The notes: generated by a model from the letters alone, not told the origin. Shown: positions 16,618 to 23,901, counted from the stretch's first letter. The stretch is 64,000 nucleotides of DNA from Prochlorococcus marinus str. MIT 0918 (GCF_027359415.1 NZ_CP114780.1:310001-374000), one strand, 5' to 3'. Numbers and translations: made by a program.

Positions 16618-16715
16618 AAAATAATATTCAAGTATACATAATATATTCAATATAATATCGTTTAAGAATTTATATCAAGAAGTTATTATATATATAGCTT
16701 TATCAGGATTTAAAA

Positions 16716-16789
16716 TGTCAGTGGAGAGACTTGAACTCTCGACCTCAGCGTTATGAATGCTGTGCTCTAACCAGCTGAGCTACACTGAC
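16716..16789 (-). tRNA. tRNA with CAU anticodon, probably elongator tRNA-Met
   Basis: A 74-nt cloverleaf on the minus strand. The acceptor arm GTCAGTG pairs with CACTGAC (discriminator A), the D-arm is GCTC...GAGC, the anticodon loop is TTCATAA giving CAU, and the T-arm contains GTTCAAGTC. CCA is not encoded. The anticodon stem lacks the three G-C pairs of initiator tRNA, so it is not tRNA-fMet; elongator Met is most likely, with lysidine-type tRNA-Ile as an alternative. The innermost anticodon-stem pair reads A-C. The surrounding 16618-16978 stretch otherwise shows nothing recognisable. Confidence 0.92.
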
Positions 16790-16978
16790 AAGCTATAGAA
16801 GCCACACTATTGTAAGCTATTGTGGAATTAAAATAAATCCCGCACTCTATTAATAAAGGATTTACTGACATTGCTAATGAACACAAGAAAAAGTCTTGGT
16901 AACCATATTTCATTTTTTACAATAATCATTTAAAAAGCTAGAATAATAATAGTATAGCTTCAATTACTGAATAATTAA

Positions 16979-17176
16979 ATGGCTAAAGAAAAGAAAAAAT
17001 TTAAAAATAAATTAAAATATAAGAAAAAATTTATTTATATTTATTCATTACTCAAAGCAACTTCTATGCTCATTTCTACTATCGCATTAGTTGCAATTTC
17101 TTTACAAGTTAAATCAATGAATAATGAATCAAAGTCATATAATAATTCAGTAGAGGAAATTCTATTTAAAAACTAA
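16979..17176 (+). CDS. Small single-helix membrane protein, hypothetical
   Basis: A 65-residue product with a strongly basic N-terminus (MAKEKKKFKNKLKYKKKF), then one hydrophobic helix (about residues 30-46, 'SMLISTIALVAISLQV') and a short polar tail. The positive-inside rule predicts the N-terminus in the cytosol. No homology is recognised. The basic-then-hydrophobic layout argues weakly for a real gene. Confidence 0.5.
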   Translation: MAKEKKKFKNKLKYKKKFIYIYSLLKATSMLISTIALVAISLQVKSMNNESKSYNNSVEEILFKN

Positions 17177-17202
17177 ACTATTCATTAGCCGCTAGTTATT
17201 GT

Positions 17203-17211
17203 AAAGGAGGT
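17203..17211 (+). promoter_or_regulatory. Strong Shine-Dalgarno-like sequence without an evident gene
   Basis: The run TAAAGGAGGT is complementary to the 16S rRNA tail, yet no start codon lies 5-10 bases downstream. The nearest ATG (about 17234) opens only seven codons. It may be a remnant of a lost gene or chance. Confidence 0.3.
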
Positions 17212-17299
17212 ATTTGGAATAAATAATAATACTAATGTTTATATTACTATGTAGATTAATAACTTATTGTTACTATGACATTGTAAATTTAATATTTCT

Positions 17300-17446
17300 A
17301 TGAATTTAATAATAAAACATAAACAATTAATCACTTGGTATCAAAAGAAGCTTGGCTTAACTCATTATGGATTACTATGGCTGGTCTTTTTTAAAGGAGT
17401 AGTTGTTACACTTATTATAAATCATTCGTTTTTTCGATGTTCATAA
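17300..17446 (+). CDS. Possible small membrane protein, 48 residues
   Basis: An open frame from ATG 17300 reading MNLIIKHKQLITWYQKKLGL, then a hydrophobic stretch 'YGLLWLVFFKGVVVTLIINH' and a stop at 17444. An amphipathic basic segment before a single helix looks like the small membrane proteins common in picocyanobacteria. It is the only coding candidate in the 392-bp space between 17177 and 17568. No ribosome-binding site is obvious and homology is untested. Confidence 0.45.
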   Translation: MNLIIKHKQLITWYQKKLGLTHYGLLWLVFFKGVVVTLIINHSFFRCS

Positions 17447-17568
17447 AGTGCTTTCATAGCAGTGCTTTTGAAGCGTATCCCAATTAAAATGACTTTCAGA
17501 GGGTTAGTGATTATTAATTAAGCAATAATGTAGTAGAATAGATTCTAGTATTAATTTAAATTTTAACT

Positions 17569-18249
17569 TTGAACAATAATATCCTTACAAATTTTTCCTT
17601 TGATTCCACTCAACTATCTAGTAGTTCATTTGCTTTTTCTATTCTTTTATCATTCTCTCTCTCTTATTTGCTTTCAAAGTTATATAAATCGCAATCGCAT
17701 TCTTTATCAAATCCAGAAACATTAGCTAGAGTATTTCCTATTCTCAGTATTGGAACAACAATAATAATTGCAGTAGTAAAGTCATCATTAGCATTGTCGC
17801 TAGGTTTAGTCGGGGCTTTATCAATTGTAAGATTTAGAACTCCAGTAAAGGAACCAGAGGAATTAACATATATATTTCTTTGTATAGGTATTGGCTTAGC
17901 TACAGGAGCGGATCAATACTCGGCAGCAATCATTGGCTTATTACTCACGTCATTTTTTGTTTATTTTTATAATTGGTTATCTGGAAGAAAAAAAATACAA
18001 AATTTAATAAGAATCTCTGTCAACGGTATTAATCCAGATGAAATTAATACATTAATTTCAATTCTGTCTACAAACTGCTTAAGAGTTAACTTTAATAATC
18101 TGTCAGTTAATAATTCCACTAAAGACAGGTTTACTACAATGACACTTTCTATCTTACCCAATAGATTTATTGATATAGATTCTATAACTAAAGAAGTATC
18201 TGCAGCATTTCCTAATGCTAGTTTTACTATTGTAGATAGCAATTATTAG
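17569..18249 (+). CDS. DUF4956 family membrane protein
   Basis: A 226-residue protein with an N-terminal half of about four membrane helices (residues 18-38, 52-72, 76-92 and 99-135). It contains the conserved 'SLALSLGLVGALSIVRFRTPVKEPEELTY' region of DUF4956, here spanning residues about 70-98. A soluble C-terminal domain of about 80 residues follows. Function is unproven. DUF4956 genes commonly neighbour VTC-domain and CotH genes in other bacteria, as here (20-bp gap to the CotH gene). The only plausible start is TTG at 17569. Confidence 0.87.
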   Translation: MNNNILTNFSFDSTQLSSSSFAFSILLSFSLSYLLSKLYKSQSHSLSNPETLARVFPILSIGTTIIIAVVKSSLALSLGLVGALSIVRFRTPVKEPEELTYIFLCIGIGLATGADQYSAAIIGLLLTSFFVYFYNWLSGRKKIQNLIRISVNGINPDEINTLISILSTNCLRVNFNNLSVNNSTKDRFTTMTLSILPNRFIDIDSITKEVSAAFPNASFTIVDSNY

Positions 18250-18269
18250 TCCTCCATATAATTTAACTT

Positions 18270-20933
18270 ATGTTAGTTTTTGAAAAAAAAATTAAAAATA
18301 ATACTAGATCTCTTAGGATCTTAGATTATTTATCAAAAATAAATAGGAAATCTATTTTCCTTAAGACGTTAATAGGTTTTACTTCTATAGGTATAATCCT
18401 GATTCCATTAGATTTTGGTAAACCATCTAATCCAAATATATCAAATATTATAAGTAAAACCTTAAATAAGATTGATACCAGAATAGGTTATCTTGGTAAT
18501 GAAACATATTTATTTGGTGGAAATCTATTATCTATTGGAACTAATTATATAAAGTCATTTATAATTAAGCAGAATGACATTAGATTAAATATTAGTATCA
18601 AGAACCTTAATAAAATTAAAAATATTAGAAATAAGGCTATTAAAGATGGAATTTTAATTAGATCAGATGATGATCAGGTCAATGGCTCAATTAGTTATAA
18701 AGGTACTAATTATCCAATTGAATTAAGATTAAAAGGTGATTGGACAGATCACCTTTTAGGAGATAAATGGTCATTTAGAATCCAAACAAAAAAAGACACT
18801 TCATTCGAAGGTATGTATGAGTTTTCACTTCAGCATCCCAGAACAAGAAACTATATTAATGAGTATGTATTTCATAAGTTACTTAAATATGAAAATCTTC
18901 CATATTTAAGATATGACTTTAAACCATTTTATCTTAATGGTAAATATTTAGGTGTATATGCAATAGAGGAACATTTTGGTAAAGCAGTAATTGAAAATAG
19001 TAAGTTTAGAGAAGGTCCTATAATAAAACTTTCAGACCAGGATCTTAGAAATGAGAGACAAAGGATGCTAGAAATTGATAATAGTCGTTTCAACTATTTT
19101 ACAGTAAACCAAAACAACTCAGATATAGATACATTTAATCAAAATAAAATTTCAACAAATCCTCAACAAATATCACAATATAATCTTGCTAAGGACTTAT
19201 TTAATGATTTTCTTAAAAATAAATATAAATCTTCAGATGTATTTGATCTTGAATTAACAGCAAAATATTTCGCGTTATTAGATCTATTACAAGCTGGAAA
19301 AGCTAATACATGGTATGATATGAGGTTTTATTTTAATCCTATTATTGCTAGATTACTACCAATTGGCTATGACGCACAATATCCTATAAGAACACAACAA
19401 AGAATTCTATCGTCTGATTTAAATACATTAAATATATTTAATGATCCATTATTTGTAAAAGAATATATCTCTAACTTACAAAGATTAACTTCACCTGGAT
19501 ACCTAGAGAATTTTTTAGATTATATTAATAAAGATTTAAAAGTTACATTAACTAAAATTCACAGATCCTACCCTCATGTAAAGTTTCTTAATTCTGAACT
19601 ATATAAAAATAGAAAATATATACTAACAAGATTAACACCCGATAAACCTATTGGCTTAGTTTTAAATAGTCCTATAAACGGTAATAATATTTTAGATCTT
19701 GAGTTATATAACAAAACTACACTTCCACTAAATATTAAATCATTAGAATATAATGGAATTCATTATTATCCATCAGCACAAGAAATTTTAGAACCATTAG
19801 ATAGATTTAATAGACTACGCTCTAGAAATATTAAATTTATTTCTAAAAATTCTAATTATCCTTCTGCTAATTCATTATCTAATAATTTAATTAATATTAA
19901 ATATAATCTTATCGGCTCAACGTCTATTCAAACAATTTCACTTAAGACATTACCATTTTCAAATCAAACTACACCCACTAATTATTTAGTAAGAAGACGT
20001 ACTAATATTAAGGATTTCGAATTTTTAAAGGTAGATAAGAAAGCTAAGGAGATTACTATTGGTACTAGTGTGGTTATTGATAAACCTTTAATTATGCCTA
20101 CTAACTATAAACTTAAGATACTTAAAGGTGTCTCCATTACCCTTAAAAATAATGCACTAATTTTAATTCAGGGACCACTATTTTTACAAGGATCTAGAGA
20201 TCTTCCTATTTATATCAATAATGATTCGACAGGAAAAGGATTAATTGTAATTAATGCTAATTCTCGATCGGTTATAACACATTCATTTTTTAATAGTTTA
20301 TCTGAACCATCCATTGCTTCTATAAACATCACAGGAGGTTTAACATTTTACAATTCTCCAGTTACAATAGAGGATTCTACTTTTTCACAGGCATCTTCTG
20401 AAGATTCTCTTAACCTAGTACGCTCTCCTTTTCTAATTAATAATACTAAATTTATAGGCTCAGCATCAGATGCTATAGATATTGATTTTTCTAATGGTAC
20501 TATATCTAACTCAAGCTTTTCAAATACTGGTAATGATTCAATAGATATTTCTGGTGCAGATGTTACTCTAAATAATATCAGCATTATCTCCTCAGGCGAC
20601 AAGGCAATAAGTGTTGGCGAAGAGGGTAATGTTATAGCTAATAATATTAAAGTTTCTGACTCATTTATAGGAATTGCCAGTAAGGATCTCTCTAATGTAA
20701 AAATCTCAAATATATCTATTAATAATGTTGAATTTTGCCTGACAGCATATAAAAAGAAACCAGAATATGGACCAGCGTCAATTAAATTGTTATCAAATAG
20801 TTCCACCTGTCATTCTAAATATTTATTAGAACCTGGTTCAACAATTTCCTCTAAATATAATATCTTTATACCTAACAGTATTAACGTCTATAATCAACTT
20901 TATATAAAGGAGGATATTAATGGATCTAAATAA
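18270..20933 (+). CDS. CotH-family protein with C-terminal beta-helix domain
   Basis: An 887-residue protein predicted to be membrane-anchored. One hydrophobic helix (about 33-50) is followed by an extracytoplasmic CotH domain (about 115-450) with 'IELRLKGDWTDH', 'YLNGKYLGVYAIEEHFGK' and 'RFYFNPIIARLLPIGYDAQY'. CotH proteins are atypical secreted kinases in spore coats. Residues about 600-850 form a run of short repeats rich in 'ISNSSFSNTGNDSIDISGA'-like strands, matching a right-handed parallel beta-helix that may bind polysaccharide. The gene lies between DUF4956 and VTC genes; its last 14 bases overlap the VTC gene. Confidence 0.85.
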   Translation: MLVFEKKIKNNTRSLRILDYLSKINRKSIFLKTLIGFTSIGIILIPLDFGKPSNPNISNIISKTLNKIDTRIGYLGNETYLFGGNLLSIGTNYIKSFIIKQNDIRLNISIKNLNKIKNIRNKAIKDGILIRSDDDQVNGSISYKGTNYPIELRLKGDWTDHLLGDKWSFRIQTKKDTSFEGMYEFSLQHPRTRNYINEYVFHKLLKYENLPYLRYDFKPFYLNGKYLGVYAIEEHFGKAVIENSKFREGPIIKLSDQDLRNERQRMLEIDNSRFNYFTVNQNNSDIDTFNQNKISTNPQQISQYNLAKDLFNDFLKNKYKSSDVFDLELTAKYFALLDLLQAGKANTWYDMRFYFNPIIARLLPIGYDAQYPIRTQQRILSSDLNTLNIFNDPLFVKEYISNLQRLTSPGYLENFLDYINKDLKVTLTKIHRSYPHVKFLNSELYKNRKYILTRLTPDKPIGLVLNSPINGNNILDLELYNKTTLPLNIKSLEYNGIHYYPSAQEILEPLDRFNRLRSRNIKFISKNSNYPSANSLSNNLINIKYNLIGSTSIQTISLKTLPFSNQTTPTNYLVRRRTNIKDFEFLKVDKKAKEITIGTSVVIDKPLIMPTNYKLKILKGVSITLKNNALILIQGPLFLQGSRDLPIYINNDSTGKGLIVINANSRSVITHSFFNSLSEPSIASINITGGLTFYNSPVTIEDSTFSQASSEDSLNLVRSPFLINNTKFIGSASDAIDIDFSNGTISNSSFSNTGNDSIDISGADVTLNNISIISSGDKAISVGEEGNVIANNIKVSDSFIGIASKDLSNVKISNISINNVEFCLTAYKKKPEYGPASIKLLSNSSTCHSKYLLEPGSTISSKYNIFIPNSINVYNQLYIKEDINGSK

Positions 20934-21606
20934 TATAGTTTATAGACACGAAAAGAAATTTGTTGATAATTCTAATTTAGAATCTCTTGATATTTTACAA
21001 ACAATTATACCTTCAGGTATTTCAGAGATTTATTCAGAAAGGAGAATTAATTCTATTTATTATGATACTGATTCTTTATATTTAGCAAACTTAAATATTG
21101 ATGGTATAGGTTATAGAGATAAGTTTAGAATTAGATACTATGGCTCTAAAACTGATTTAGAGAAACCTAAACTTGAAATTAAATCTAAAAGAGGTCTAGT
21201 AGGTCATAAGATAAATATTGATATTAACATAGAATCTCTATTTAAGAATCAATTTAATCTTTCATTTCTTGCTATTGATTCAAATATCCCTAATAACCTT
21301 ACTAACTTACTTTATATAATTAAACCTTTAATCATAGTTTCTTATAATAGACGCTATTATTTATCTAATTGTTCTGCATATAGAGTTACTTTTGATAAGG
21401 ATATTGAATATAATTTGTTTAATTATGACCTACAGAATAGAAAAATACCTTTAATAGGTTCTATTCCAGATAGTAACCGTATAATAGAAATTAAATATAA
21501 TGCTAAAGATTCTAATGATGCATCTCTAATATCTCAGAATTTTCCATATAGACTTACATCATGTTCAAAATATATTAATGGATTAACCTGTTTAGGTTTA
21601 ATATAA
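20920..21606 (+). CDS. VTC-domain (polyphosphate polymerase-like) protein
   Basis: A 228-residue VTC domain of the triphosphate-tunnel superfamily. The tunnel residues are visible: 'YRHEKKF' at the N-terminus, 'FRIRYYG', 'KLEIKSKRG', 'VSYNRRYYL', 'YRVTFDKDI' and 'IIEIKYNA' near the end. The yeast Vtc4 domain makes inorganic polyphosphate from ATP; bacterial stand-alone VTC proteins are little studied. A strong AAAGGAGG lies 7 bases before the ATG, inside the end of the CotH gene (14-bp overlap), which fixes the start and shows coexpression. Confidence 0.9.
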   Translation: MDLNNIVYRHEKKFVDNSNLESLDILQTIIPSGISEIYSERRINSIYYDTDSLYLANLNIDGIGYRDKFRIRYYGSKTDLEKPKLEIKSKRGLVGHKINIDINIESLFKNQFNLSFLAIDSNIPNNLTNLLYIIKPLIIVSYNRRYYLSNCSAYRVTFDKDIEYNLFNYDLQNRKIPLIGSIPDSNRIIEIKYNAKDSNDASLISQNFPYRLTSCSKYINGLTCLGLI

Positions 21607-21634
21607 GTTATAGGAAATTTTAATTAATTTGATA

Positions 21635-23248
21635 TTATTTATAGATAACTGTAATCATTGGACGTTCTGTTATGGCTTTCCATTTCTCAGATCTAATTAT
21701 TAGATTAGAATTATCATTTGCCCTTAATAACCATCCATAATTAGGGGCGCCTTTCTGCCATCTTTTTATACTATCTGTAACATCTATACTTTTAGTGCCA
21801 TTAATATTATTTATGTATTTATCTATAACTAGTAATTTTGAAGTATCAATTTTATCTCGTTTATGATTCGATTTAATTATATTTTTCCAGTTGTCATTAA
21901 TTTCATATAATCCATAACTACCCTTTGCTTTTGAATCTCCTTCTATTGTTAATGTAAGTATTGCTTTAACTATATTTACGTTTTTTGGAATTTGAAATTT
22001 AGGATTTGTATGAATTCCATTAAATTTAATTAGGGCATAATCTTCATTTGTTTGTGTATTTGATAATAAAATATCTTTATTGGATTTTAAAGCATTATTA
22101 TTCTTATAATTTATTGTTTTTACAATATTTCCTTTATATATATTATTTCTAAGTATTTGACCTTCCCTATAGTGTATAAGCTGATGTTTTTTTAAAAATT
22201 CTATATTTTTCTTTATATGTAATTCTGTAGTATAATTACCAAATTTATCAAGATATCTATTAGGTATATTATTTGATGAATAAATATAATTAGGAGAATA
22301 GCTTTTTACATTTAAGATATTTTTAGAGGTATTTATATTAAGTATTTTAAGCCAGCCATTTCCGCCATTAGGATCAAATTGATAGTCAGCTAATATTTGT
22401 ATTACATCTCTGTTTAAAATAGTCTGCGTCTTTAATAAAGCATCTCCTTGATAATGACCTGATAACACCATAAAGATTTGAGGGAATGGTTCTATAAGCT
22501 TCTTAAACAATTCCTTAGGGCTATTATTACCTGTATCATGAGGCGTATTCCCTACCTTATCTATAGATACTTTTTTCTTAGATTTTAAATATTGGTGAGT
22601 AGTTAATATAACTGGTATTTTAGGATTATCTAACATAATGTTCTGTGCAAATTCTATTGATTTATCAGAAGGTAACCACTCTAATCCGATATGAATAAAG
22701 GGCTCACCATTAGCATTAAACCTTTGAGCAAAACTACTTTGATTAGTGTCATATCCTAAAAACCAATTTCTTTTTAAATATCTTTGAGCTCCAAAATATT
22801 TTTTAAAGTTCTCATTATATTTTTTATTATTCCAACAATCATAATCCATATTACCTGGTACTACAGAATATGGTATTGGTGCATTGTTAACTTCTAAATG
22901 ACGTAAAGAATTTAGGGCTCTTTTCCATCTAATATTATTATTTGTGATATATTTGAATAAAAATTTAGGACAGACATTATCAATTTTAATTAGTTCTTCT
23001 AATTTATTTGGTGGATTGTCTATTACGTCTCCTACATGAGAAATGAATACTATATTTAACTTTTCTTTGTTTTGAACTATCCATTTTATTTGATTTTCAA
23101 AATAAGTTATATTTTCTTTCTTCTTTGTATATGATTGTGTATCTGGAATTAAAATAATAGAGAATTCATCTGCTTTTATGGGTGTTGATATATTAAAAGT
23201 ATATAGAGACAATGTTATAAATAATGACTTAATTAATCCTCGCTTCAT
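21635..23248 (-). CDS. Secreted metallophosphoesterase with DNRLRE-type C-terminal domain
   Basis: A 537-residue calcineurin-like phosphoesterase. A signal peptide is predicted (residues 1-26, cleavage near PIKA). Metal-site motifs are 'PDTQ' (DxQ), 'HVGDVID' (GDxxD), 'VPGNMDYD' (GNxD), 'LTTHQY' and 'LSGHYQGD' (GHxxG). From about residue 395 the protein has a DNRLRE-like beta-sandwich ('NVNIVKAILTLTIEG' to 'IDVTDSIKRWQKGAPNYGWLLRA'), a module seen on cell-surface proteins. It is convergent with the VTC gene 28 bp away. Substrate unknown; a phosphorylated surface polymer or polyphosphate is possible. Confidence 0.85.
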   Translation of the reverse strand: MKRGLIKSLFITLSLYTFNISTPIKADEFSIILIPDTQSYTKKKENITYFENQIKWIVQNKEKLNIVFISHVGDVIDNPPNKLEELIKIDNVCPKFLFKYITNNNIRWKRALNSLRHLEVNNAPIPYSVVPGNMDYDCWNNKKYNENFKKYFGAQRYLKRNWFLGYDTNQSSFAQRFNANGEPFIHIGLEWLPSDKSIEFAQNIMLDNPKIPVILTTHQYLKSKKKVSIDKVGNTPHDTGNNSPKELFKKLIEPFPQIFMVLSGHYQGDALLKTQTILNRDVIQILADYQFDPNGGNGWLKILNINTSKNILNVKSYSPNYIYSSNNIPNRYLDKFGNYTTELHIKKNIEFLKKHQLIHYREGQILRNNIYKGNIVKTINYKNNNALKSNKDILLSNTQTNEDYALIKFNGIHTNPKFQIPKNVNIVKAILTLTIEGDSKAKGSYGLYEINDNWKNIIKSNHKRDKIDTSKLLVIDKYINNINGTKSIDVTDSIKRWQKGAPNYGWLLRANDNSNLIIRSEKWKAITERPMITVIYK

Positions 23249-23421
23249 TTAATTATTTTAATTTAGTATTTATATTTATAATCTATTGCCTGTATGAAAT
23301 AAGTCAATATTTTTGTTTTATATATATAGAAATATATTAATTCATGGTAAATTAATATAGAATTCATTTGAAATAATGTTTGTTCAAAATAGATTAATAT
23401 GTATATTTACTTTAGATAATA

Positions 23422-23901
23422 TTACGAACATGATCTCATTGCATAGTATGCCGCGATTCCACATGCTACTGATAAATTAAGGCTTCTAACCCCAGATTTA
23501 TTACGTATTGAATGATACTTTGAAGGCATTTGTATTGTAGCTACAAGATTACATTTACTCTTTACTGAATTGGGTAGACCATTATCTTCTCTACCAAATA
23601 ATAAACAATCATCTTTTTTGAATATCAATGAATCAAGATTAATATCACCATCTTTGCTGAAAGCTATAATACGAGAATTTTTTACATATTCTTGATAATT
23701 TGTAAAATTTTTATGTGTAGTTAAATTTACATTTTTCCAATAATCTAGACCAGCTCTCTTTAAGTATGAATTATCTAATGAAAAACCCAAGGGATAAATT
23801 AAATCTAGAGGAAAATTAAATGCAAGGCATGTTCTACCAATATTTCCAGTATTTTGTGGTATACGAGGTTCAAAAAGTCCTATTCTGATATTGTGAATCA
23901 T
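23422..23901 (-). CDS. trmL: tRNA (cytidine(34)-2'-O)-methyltransferase
   Basis: SPOUT-class enzyme that 2'-O-methylates the wobble base of tRNA-Leu isoacceptors using S-adenosylmethionine. The 159-residue length is standard. The N-terminal 'GLFEPRIPQNTGNIGRTCLAF', 'LLFGREDNGLP' and knot motif 'VRSLNLSVACGI' are typical; a few extra residues sit between 'IQMP' and 'RSLNLS'. It is two bases downstream of cobU. Confidence 0.92.
   Translation of the reverse strand: MIHNIRIGLFEPRIPQNTGNIGRTCLAFNFPLDLIYPLGFSLDNSYLKRAGLDYWKNVNLTTHKNFTNYQEYVKNSRIIAFSKDGDINLDSLIFKKDDCLLFGREDNGLPNSVKSKCNLVATIQMPSKYHSIRNKSGVRSLNLSVACGIAAYYAMRSCS

Follow-up and report, generated by a model that had tools for sequence, protein, structure and literature searches.

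What do four adjacent genes encoding a DUF4956 membrane protein, a CotH/β-helix protein, a VTC protein and an exported phosphoesterase do in Prochlorococcus marinus str. MIT 0918? A sequence-only reading of the window, by which we mean the whole stretch of 64,000 nucleotides that was analysed (GCF_027359415.1 NZ_CP114780.1:310001-374000), had suggested that this set could build, phosphorylate and trim a phosphate-rich or phosphorylated surface polymer. We considered each of the four proteins, the occurrence of their genes in other genomes and the site at which they lie, and we weighed that suggestion against other explanations.

Organization of the locus

The host is a Prochlorococcus-like genome of 1,789,313 bp in one contig. 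On the plus strand of the window, the gene for the DUF4956 protein (17569-18249; 226 aa, TTG start) is followed after a gap of 20 bp by the CotH/β-helix gene (18270-20933; 887 aa, ATG start), which overlaps by 14 bp the gene for a soluble VTC protein (20920-21606; 228 aa). The Shine-Dalgarno sequence of the VTC gene is AAAGGAGG. The phosphoesterase gene (21635-23248; 537 aa) lies 28 bp beyond VTC on the minus strand and is convergent with the operon. The open reading frames, gaps and overlap thus match exactly the tight three-gene operon and facing phosphoesterase that had been described before. The domain identities were also borne out, with scores above the cut-off for DUF4956 (PF16316, 56.7 bits against a cut-off of 30.6), VTC (PF09359, 77.5 bits against 23), Metallophos (PF00149, 25.4 bits against 21.5; all Pfam) and the C-terminal DNRLRE/CBM96-like module of the phosphoesterase (NCBIfam, 49.2 bits against 34). 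The Pfam score for CotH itself (PF08757, 23.0 bits) is just under the cut-off of 23.8; both folds of the proposed membrane-anchored fusion of CotH to a right-handed β-helix are present in the AlphaFold2 model of the protein. Promoter and terminator scans gave matches no more numerous than those in shuffled sequences. Between the neighbouring tRNA-Met and the operon there is an open reading frame of 48 aa on the plus strand (17300-17446, MNLIIKHKQLITWYQKKLGLTHYGLLWLVFFKGVVVTLII...) that resembles a short picocyanobacterial membrane peptide.

Conservation of the three-gene module

Across 300 genomes of the family, VTC is present in 16 and DUF4956 in 16, and 15 genomes are shared between the two (hypergeometric p 3e-23). 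At 16 genomes in 300, the set is unusual for picocyanobacteria, as had been supposed. Outside the picocyanobacteria, a motif search for DUF4956 found at least 80 loci in bacterial genomes and one viral contig. We ranked 81 loci by their likeness to the Prochlorococcus DUF4956, so the fractions given here describe that subfamily and not all DUF4956 proteins. Among the matches listed, DUF4956, CotH/β-helix and VTC genes are all present in 42 of the 81 loci, and they stand in exactly the order of the window (DUF4956-CotH/β-helix-VTC) in 24 of the 81, with CotH-DUF4956-VTC and DUF4956-VTC-CotH as common variants. Where a listed locus has more than 4.5 kb on each side (n = 45), VTC is found in 43 and CotH in 38. 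The triad spreads over at least 11 phyla, Prochlorococcus included; the matches listed come from Bacteroidota, Pseudomonadota (including SAR11), Verrucomicrobiota, Chloroflexota, Planctomycetota, Margulisiibacteriota, Myxococcota, Calditrichota, Acidobacteriota and Nitrospinota, and the module also occurs in SAR11 single cells. The earlier expectation that these three families co-occur is supported by the same arrangement across at least 11 phyla and by 15 of the 16 VTC-bearing genomes of the family, and DUF4956-CotH/β-helix-VTC is a real conserved module.

Four loci from other cyanobacteria (L048, L049, L050 and L051) combine VTC-DUF4956 with between one and four canonical CotH genes, and L050 also encodes, upstream of the module, a protein like a phosphate-selective porin (Porin_O_P). 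The sole viral contig among the matches listed (L133, IMG/VR) has VTC-DUF4956 beside a MiaB-like gene; viral carriage of the module was rejected, as this lone contig is probably host DNA, either misassigned or a flank.

The same three families are contiguous in Gram-positive pel loci, in which CotH, poly-phosphate polymerase and DUF4956 genes, with DUF4832 or DGC/PDE, are accessory genes that adjoin an exopolysaccharide system (Whitfield et al. 2020, PMC7112168). This combination of genes had therefore already been noted in 2020. The window differs from the pel set in that it has neither pel genes nor DUF4832, in that its host is a Gram-negative marine bacterium, in that its CotH domain lacks the catalytic Asp and carries a fused β-helix, and in that an exported phosphoesterase is adjacent. 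Its neighbours are FtsH, peroxiredoxin, tRNA-Met and RNA methyltransferase genes, with no adjacent pel operon. Locus lists for C. perfringens also include VTC and CotH genes. Our literature search on CotH with polyphosphate or TTM, on Prochlorococcus with CotH, and on DUF4956 returned only the pel paper, the C. perfringens gene lists and incidental mentions in transcriptome studies.

The VTC protein has a complete set of catalytic residues

The nearest solved relative of the VTC protein is yeast Vtc4, the catalytic subunit (E 1e-16). Residues K13, R70, R72, R144, R155, E190 and K217 of the window protein correspond to K200, R264, R266, R361, R373, E426 and K458 of Vtc4. In our alignment, the equivalents of K200, R264, R266, R361 and R373 are kept in 87 of 87 bacterial VTCs, and those of E426 and K458 in all 85 of the bacterial rows that cover the C-terminal part. 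Substitution at R264/R266/E426 impairs yeast VTC (PMC9911596). The basic residues expected of a VTC tunnel are thus present as a complete set at the level of sequence, and it is likely on this basis that the window VTC makes polyphosphate. PPK1 is also encoded by the host genome, so VTC would be dispensable for ordinary cytoplasmic polyphosphate.

The module resembles the eukaryotic VTC complex (Vtc1/Vtc3/Vtc4; PDB 3g3q, 8i6v; PMC9911596) in that it has a tunnel polymerase with every tested catalytic residue and a gene-linked candidate for a membrane partner. It differs from that complex in lacking an SPX domain, TM helices on VTC itself and Vtc1/DUF202, and in that its DUF4956 is MgtC-like. 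A different context, of storage type, is seen on a short contig from cyanobacterium G343 (L052:2729-5177), where the VTC gene immediately follows one for a Ppx/GppA exopolyphosphatase and no DUF4956 was seen.

The DUF4956 protein is a candidate membrane partner

Besides its match to PF16316, the DUF4956 protein matches MgtC (PF02308) with 23.7 bits, which is below the cut-off of 31.4. Its AlphaFold2 model (pLDDT 87) consists of a TM bundle of five predicted helices and a C-terminal ACT/ferredoxin-like domain, and the top Foldseek match is a weak one to the C-terminal domain of MgtC (E 1.9e-3). No structural match to Vtc1 or to a TM domain appeared in this fold search, whose list was filled by matches to the ACT-like domain. 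The motif GALSxxRFR (G82-S85, R88-R90) is invariant, and K71 and K94 are nearly so.

The PF06439 jelly-roll fold is usual in extracytoplasmic carbohydrate proteins. In Chloroflexota (L066, L077 and L129), a PF06439 jelly-roll of the 3-keto-disaccharide hydrolase type is fused to the N-terminus of DUF4956, which fits a topology with the N-terminus outside and the C-terminus inside and would place R88/R90 and K94 on the cytoplasmic side. VTC would dock where these residues lie. Gene linkage, topology and charge together suggest that DUF4956 may conduct polyphosphate.

The catalytic Asp of the kinase is replaced in the CotH domain

The 887-aa protein comprises an N-terminal TM segment, a CotH fold at residues ~99-457, a linker and a β-helix at residues ~579-872. 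In the AlphaFold2 model, which was built from 41 sequences (pLDDT 82), the CotH part matches B. cereus CotH (5jd9/5jda) with a Z of 26.5 over ~320 aligned residues and an rmsd of 3.0-3.4. When D228 of B. subtilis CotH is changed to Gln, the kinase is inactive (PMC7821199). We mapped this residue and D251, the second essential Asp in B. subtilis, from a sequence alignment and a spacing of 23 residues in B. cereus CotH. In 49 of 56 fused relatives the D228 position holds His, and in the window protein it holds Lys; none of the 56 fused proteins keeps the Asp, whereas it is present in all 8 stand-alone CotH proteins compared, each of which comes from a survey locus that also carries VTC and DUF4956. 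The D251 equivalent, D368 here, is D or E in 54 of the 56 fused proteins.

The sequence-only reading had taken CotH proteins to be secreted kinases, and in this respect it is not supported for the window protein: with the Asp at D228 gone, the CotH domain is either a pseudokinase or performs different chemistry. What the fused subfamily shares with the spore-coat kinase is the fold and the Asp equivalent to D251; what sets it apart is the replacement of Asp228 by His or Lys, residues of its own (H161, R193 and E233), the β-helix fusion and the membrane anchor.

The β-helix resembles those of polysaccharide enzymes

No Pfam family matches the β-helix part of the window protein; this fold is seen in the AlphaFold2 model, where pLDDT is mostly above 90 for residues 590-860. 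Its nearest solved folds are the alginate epimerases AlgG (4nk6, Z 26.4) and AlgE4, with Z values of ~25-26, and RbmB-type folds; other polysaccharide enzymes and tailspikes come close after these. The β-helix is the best-conserved part of the protein, as it contains 19 of the 27 residues that are invariant among 16 Prochlorococcus-type proteins. Ladder geometry derived from a 22-residue register and DSSP suggests the stacks D712-D734-D756-K778, N715-D737-D759-S781, D739-S761-G783-K805 and E784-D806, the last followed by K829/K830, and the Asp ladders run over four coils. Stacked in this way along one face, the acidic and basic residues resemble a putative binding or catalytic groove.

A right-handed β-helix with conserved acidic residues along one face is shared with the AlgG/AlgE4 C5-epimerases and with other polysaccharide β-helix enzymes. 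However, the DPH[DE] epimerase motif occurs in none of 41 CotH/β-helix proteins, and the conserved D/K pattern matches no known family. A C5-epimerase identity, which the fold would fit, was rejected on account of the absent motif. We found none of the known catalytic motifs in the β-helix, a fold that is common to many enzymes and binders. The neighbours of the module in Prochlorococcus include genes for a glycosyltransferase, a UDP-sugar dehydrogenase, a polysaccharide deacetylase and an MBOAT protein; taken with the stacked residues and the pel loci, these glycan-related neighbours point to a glycan as the partner of the β-helix.

Phosphoesterases recur beside the module

The exported phosphoesterase of the window carries the motifs DTQ, GDVIDN, GNMD and GHYQ. 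It departs from the GNH[DE] motif, with GNMD where GNHD is canonical, and the other metal motifs are present. This protein is found in 1 of the 300 genomes of the family; sequence searches of the PDB, of viral contigs and of the other 299 genomes yielded no relatives, and two unannotated phage records gave weak matches. BLAST detected no homology between it and the phosphoesterases of other module loci.

Enzymes of the same broad class are nevertheless frequent at such loci. Among the matches listed, Metallophos is the commonest Pfam family in the 121 ORFs that directly flank modules (9 ORFs) and inorganic pyrophosphatase is the second (5 ORFs), while neither is among the 25 families listed for 122 distant ORFs of the same loci, which limits each to at most 3 there. 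A motif search and an HMM found 8-9 phosphoesterases near modules and none in the more distant set of 122 (p 0.0016 for 9 against 0). By BLAST, a phosphoesterase is present in 20 of the 81 loci among the matches listed, always within 1.6 kb of the module; most of these 20 adjoin the module directly on its own strand, nearly all have a signal sequence or lipobox at the start, and in L058 and L085 the phosphoesterase gene is internal to a complete operon. Other Prochlorococcus loci with a phosphoesterase are G001, L039 (which has two) and L045. An inorganic pyrophosphatase is encoded directly upstream of the module at L106:9211-9813 and L111:9186-9866 (a Flavobacteriales bacterium and a SAR11 cell). 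An enzyme of this broad class thus recurs with the module, although not at every locus. The window phosphoesterase looks like a same-class substitute and not an orthologue, and its role may be the same as that of its counterparts.

The four genes lie in an insert next to tRNA-Met

An insert of ~6.65 kb (16791-23440), absent from sister genomes, lies between tRNA-Met and a SpoU-type methyltransferase gene. The tRNA-Met gene (CAT; 16715-16790, minus strand) forms its left border, and the same tRNA-Met is at the junction in five relatives. Alignments by blastn with four genomes (G002, G012, G001 and G089) stop at the 5' end of the tRNA and resume at ~23446, inside the methyltransferase gene. The spacer at this site is ~0.2-1 kb in relatives and ~0.2 kb in G002. 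Antisense frames aside, the four genes are the only ORFs of more than 100 codons in the insert. Mobile islands associated with tRNA genes are known in Prochlorococcus, and three other triads (L034, L039 and L047) also lie ~0.1-0.7 kb from a tRNA gene. No tRNA copy of 11 or more bases and no att repeat was found within the insert, which moreover is on the 5' side of the tRNA; a tRNA-derived attachment repeat, and with it integration by a recombinase acting at a tRNA 3' end, thus finds no support.

Proposed mechanism and alternatives

We propose that the locus encodes a trans-envelope phosphate-polymer module that modifies surface polysaccharide, and we assign this overall scheme a probability of about 0.45. 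VTC would polymerize polyphosphate from ATP in the cytoplasm, a step for which the complete catalytic residues argue strongly. DUF4956 may be its membrane partner or conduit, in the position that is filled in yeast by Vtc1 and by the Vtc3/4 TM domains. Outside, the groove of the anchored CotH/β-helix protein would hold a polysaccharide, to which the rewired CotH domain might transfer or attach phosphate or polyphosphate, with the exported polyphosphate as a potential energy-rich phosphate source where ATP is absent. The co-acquired exported phosphoesterase would remove or recycle phosphate. In this proposed logic alone, the module is like MBOAT/SGNH O-acetylation systems (AlgI/AlgJ/AlgX, DltB/DltD), which have a cytoplasmic donor, a membrane conduit and a periplasmic transferase, and an MBOAT gene does lie behind the second operon of this genome. 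The module differs from those systems in that it would handle a phosphate polymer and not an acyl group, and in that the triad shares no protein family with them.

Module conservation, the complete Vtc4 set, the phosphoesterase and pyrophosphatase neighbours and the presence of four genes in one insert count for this scheme, and its polysaccharide link draws on the AlgG-like β-helix, the Chloroflexota jelly-roll fusion, the glycan-gene neighbours and the pel loci. Against it count the CotH domain without its catalytic Asp, MgtC and not Vtc1 as the best match of DUF4956, a widely shared β-helix fold with no known catalytic motif, the PPK1 of the host, and a window phosphoesterase that has GNMD and is not homologous by BLAST to those of other loci. 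Of the original surface-polymer proposal, the conserved triad, the complete VTC and a recurring class of phosphoesterase are supported; the CotH protein as a secreted kinase, in that wording, is not. The second operon and its acyltransferase link, the Asp ladders of the polysaccharide-enzyme-like β-helix and the island had not been noticed in the sequence-only reading. We are rather doubtful of a more specific form of the scheme, in which polyphosphate, not ATP, is the phosphoryl donor, passes DUF4956 and is used by the kinase-fold protein with its Asp-to-His/Lys change to phosphorylate polysaccharide held by the β-helix.

The complete VTC and its phosphoesterase and pyrophosphatase neighbours would also suit a polyphosphate store or acidic coat at the surface or in the periplasm, which the CotH/β-helix protein binds or anchors and from which the phosphoesterase releases phosphate; the missing catalytic Asp makes such a binding role for CotH plausible. 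An extracytoplasmic phosphate buffer has been described in marine Prochlorococcus and SAR11 (PMC7250820), and SAR11 cells carry the module. Yet that buffer is described as orthophosphate, a module present in only ~5% of family genomes cannot explain a general buffer, and the Asp-lined face of the β-helix is acidic, which would be odd for polyphosphate binding; we consider a store unlikely. Another explanation is that VTC and DUF4956 regulate polysaccharide export or modification, with DUF4956 as an MgtC-like ACT protein that would sense phosphate or nucleotides and thereby govern a CotH/β-helix enzyme acting on glycans. The MgtC-like character of DUF4956 and its ACT/ferredoxin-like domain agree with this, and CotH has been suggested to act as a regulator in pel loci (Whitfield et al. 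2020, PMC7112168). Retention of all catalytic tunnel residues, however, favours an enzymatic role for VTC, and the recurrent phosphoesterase and pyrophosphatase partners also speak against regulation, which we regard as quite improbable.

The CotH protein might be an ordinary secreted kinase, accompanied by accessory genes, that phosphorylates surface proteins in the way known from spore coats; this was set aside as the leading explanation because of the missing catalytic Asp. The fold match (Z 26.5) and the D or E at the D251 position in 54 of 56 proteins favour a kinase, but the loss of D228 in all 56 fused proteins set against its retention in 8 of 8 stand-alone ones, and the fact that ATP is not expected beyond the inner membrane, make this explanation very improbable. 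A separate matter, compatible with any of these explanations, is whether the phosphoesterase is an unrelated neighbour that reached a hotspot independently of the triad. Its gene is private to this genome, is on the opposite strand at an indel-prone site beside a tRNA, and encodes a protein non-homologous to the phosphoesterases of other modules. Still, apart from the triad no other sizeable gene is present in the insert, and it lies 28 bp from VTC; exported enzymes of the same superfamily occur at 20 of 81 other modules among the matches listed and at three other Prochlorococcus ones. We think an independent arrival somewhat unlikely.

Significance

VTC is known mainly from polyphosphate storage in yeast and protists. 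If the trans-envelope scheme is true, VTC would have a surface role in bacteria, functions would be at hand for DUF4956 and for a large class of CotH/β-helix proteins, and bacteria would have a way to obtain energy-rich phosphate outside the membrane, where ATP is absent. Polyphosphate-driven extracytoplasmic phosphorylation would then be a counterpart of MBOAT-dependent O-acetylation in at least 11 phyla, and the spending of phosphate on the cell surface in phosphate-starved oceans would be ecologically striking. The patchy distribution on islands suggests selection by phage or grazers. As far as the literature searched shows, what is new here is the β-helix-fused CotH subfamily without the catalytic Asp, the partnership of the module with phosphoesterases and pyrophosphatases, its occurrence in at least 11 phyla, with SAR11 and Prochlorococcus among the carriers, and its island context.

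A second operon in the same genome

A second triad with the same gene order and divergent sequence is located at 598.8-602.9 kb of this genome (L006); its genes are separated by 4 bp at one junction and overlap by 1 bp at the other. The MBOAT acyltransferase gene follows 10 bp on, and after it comes the gene for a 305-aa protein that looks, by eye, SGNH/AlgX-like; the two probably form a polysaccharide O-acetylation unit joined to this second module. In a tree of DUF4956+VTC, the two operons of the genome fall into different well-supported groups, on which ground a recent duplication was rejected; this indicates that they were acquired or inherited separately. In the surrounding region (L006:3788-11254; G000:C1 ~597.8-605.3 kb), a transglutaminase-like membrane protein with a weak match to DUF553 is encoded upstream of the second triad.
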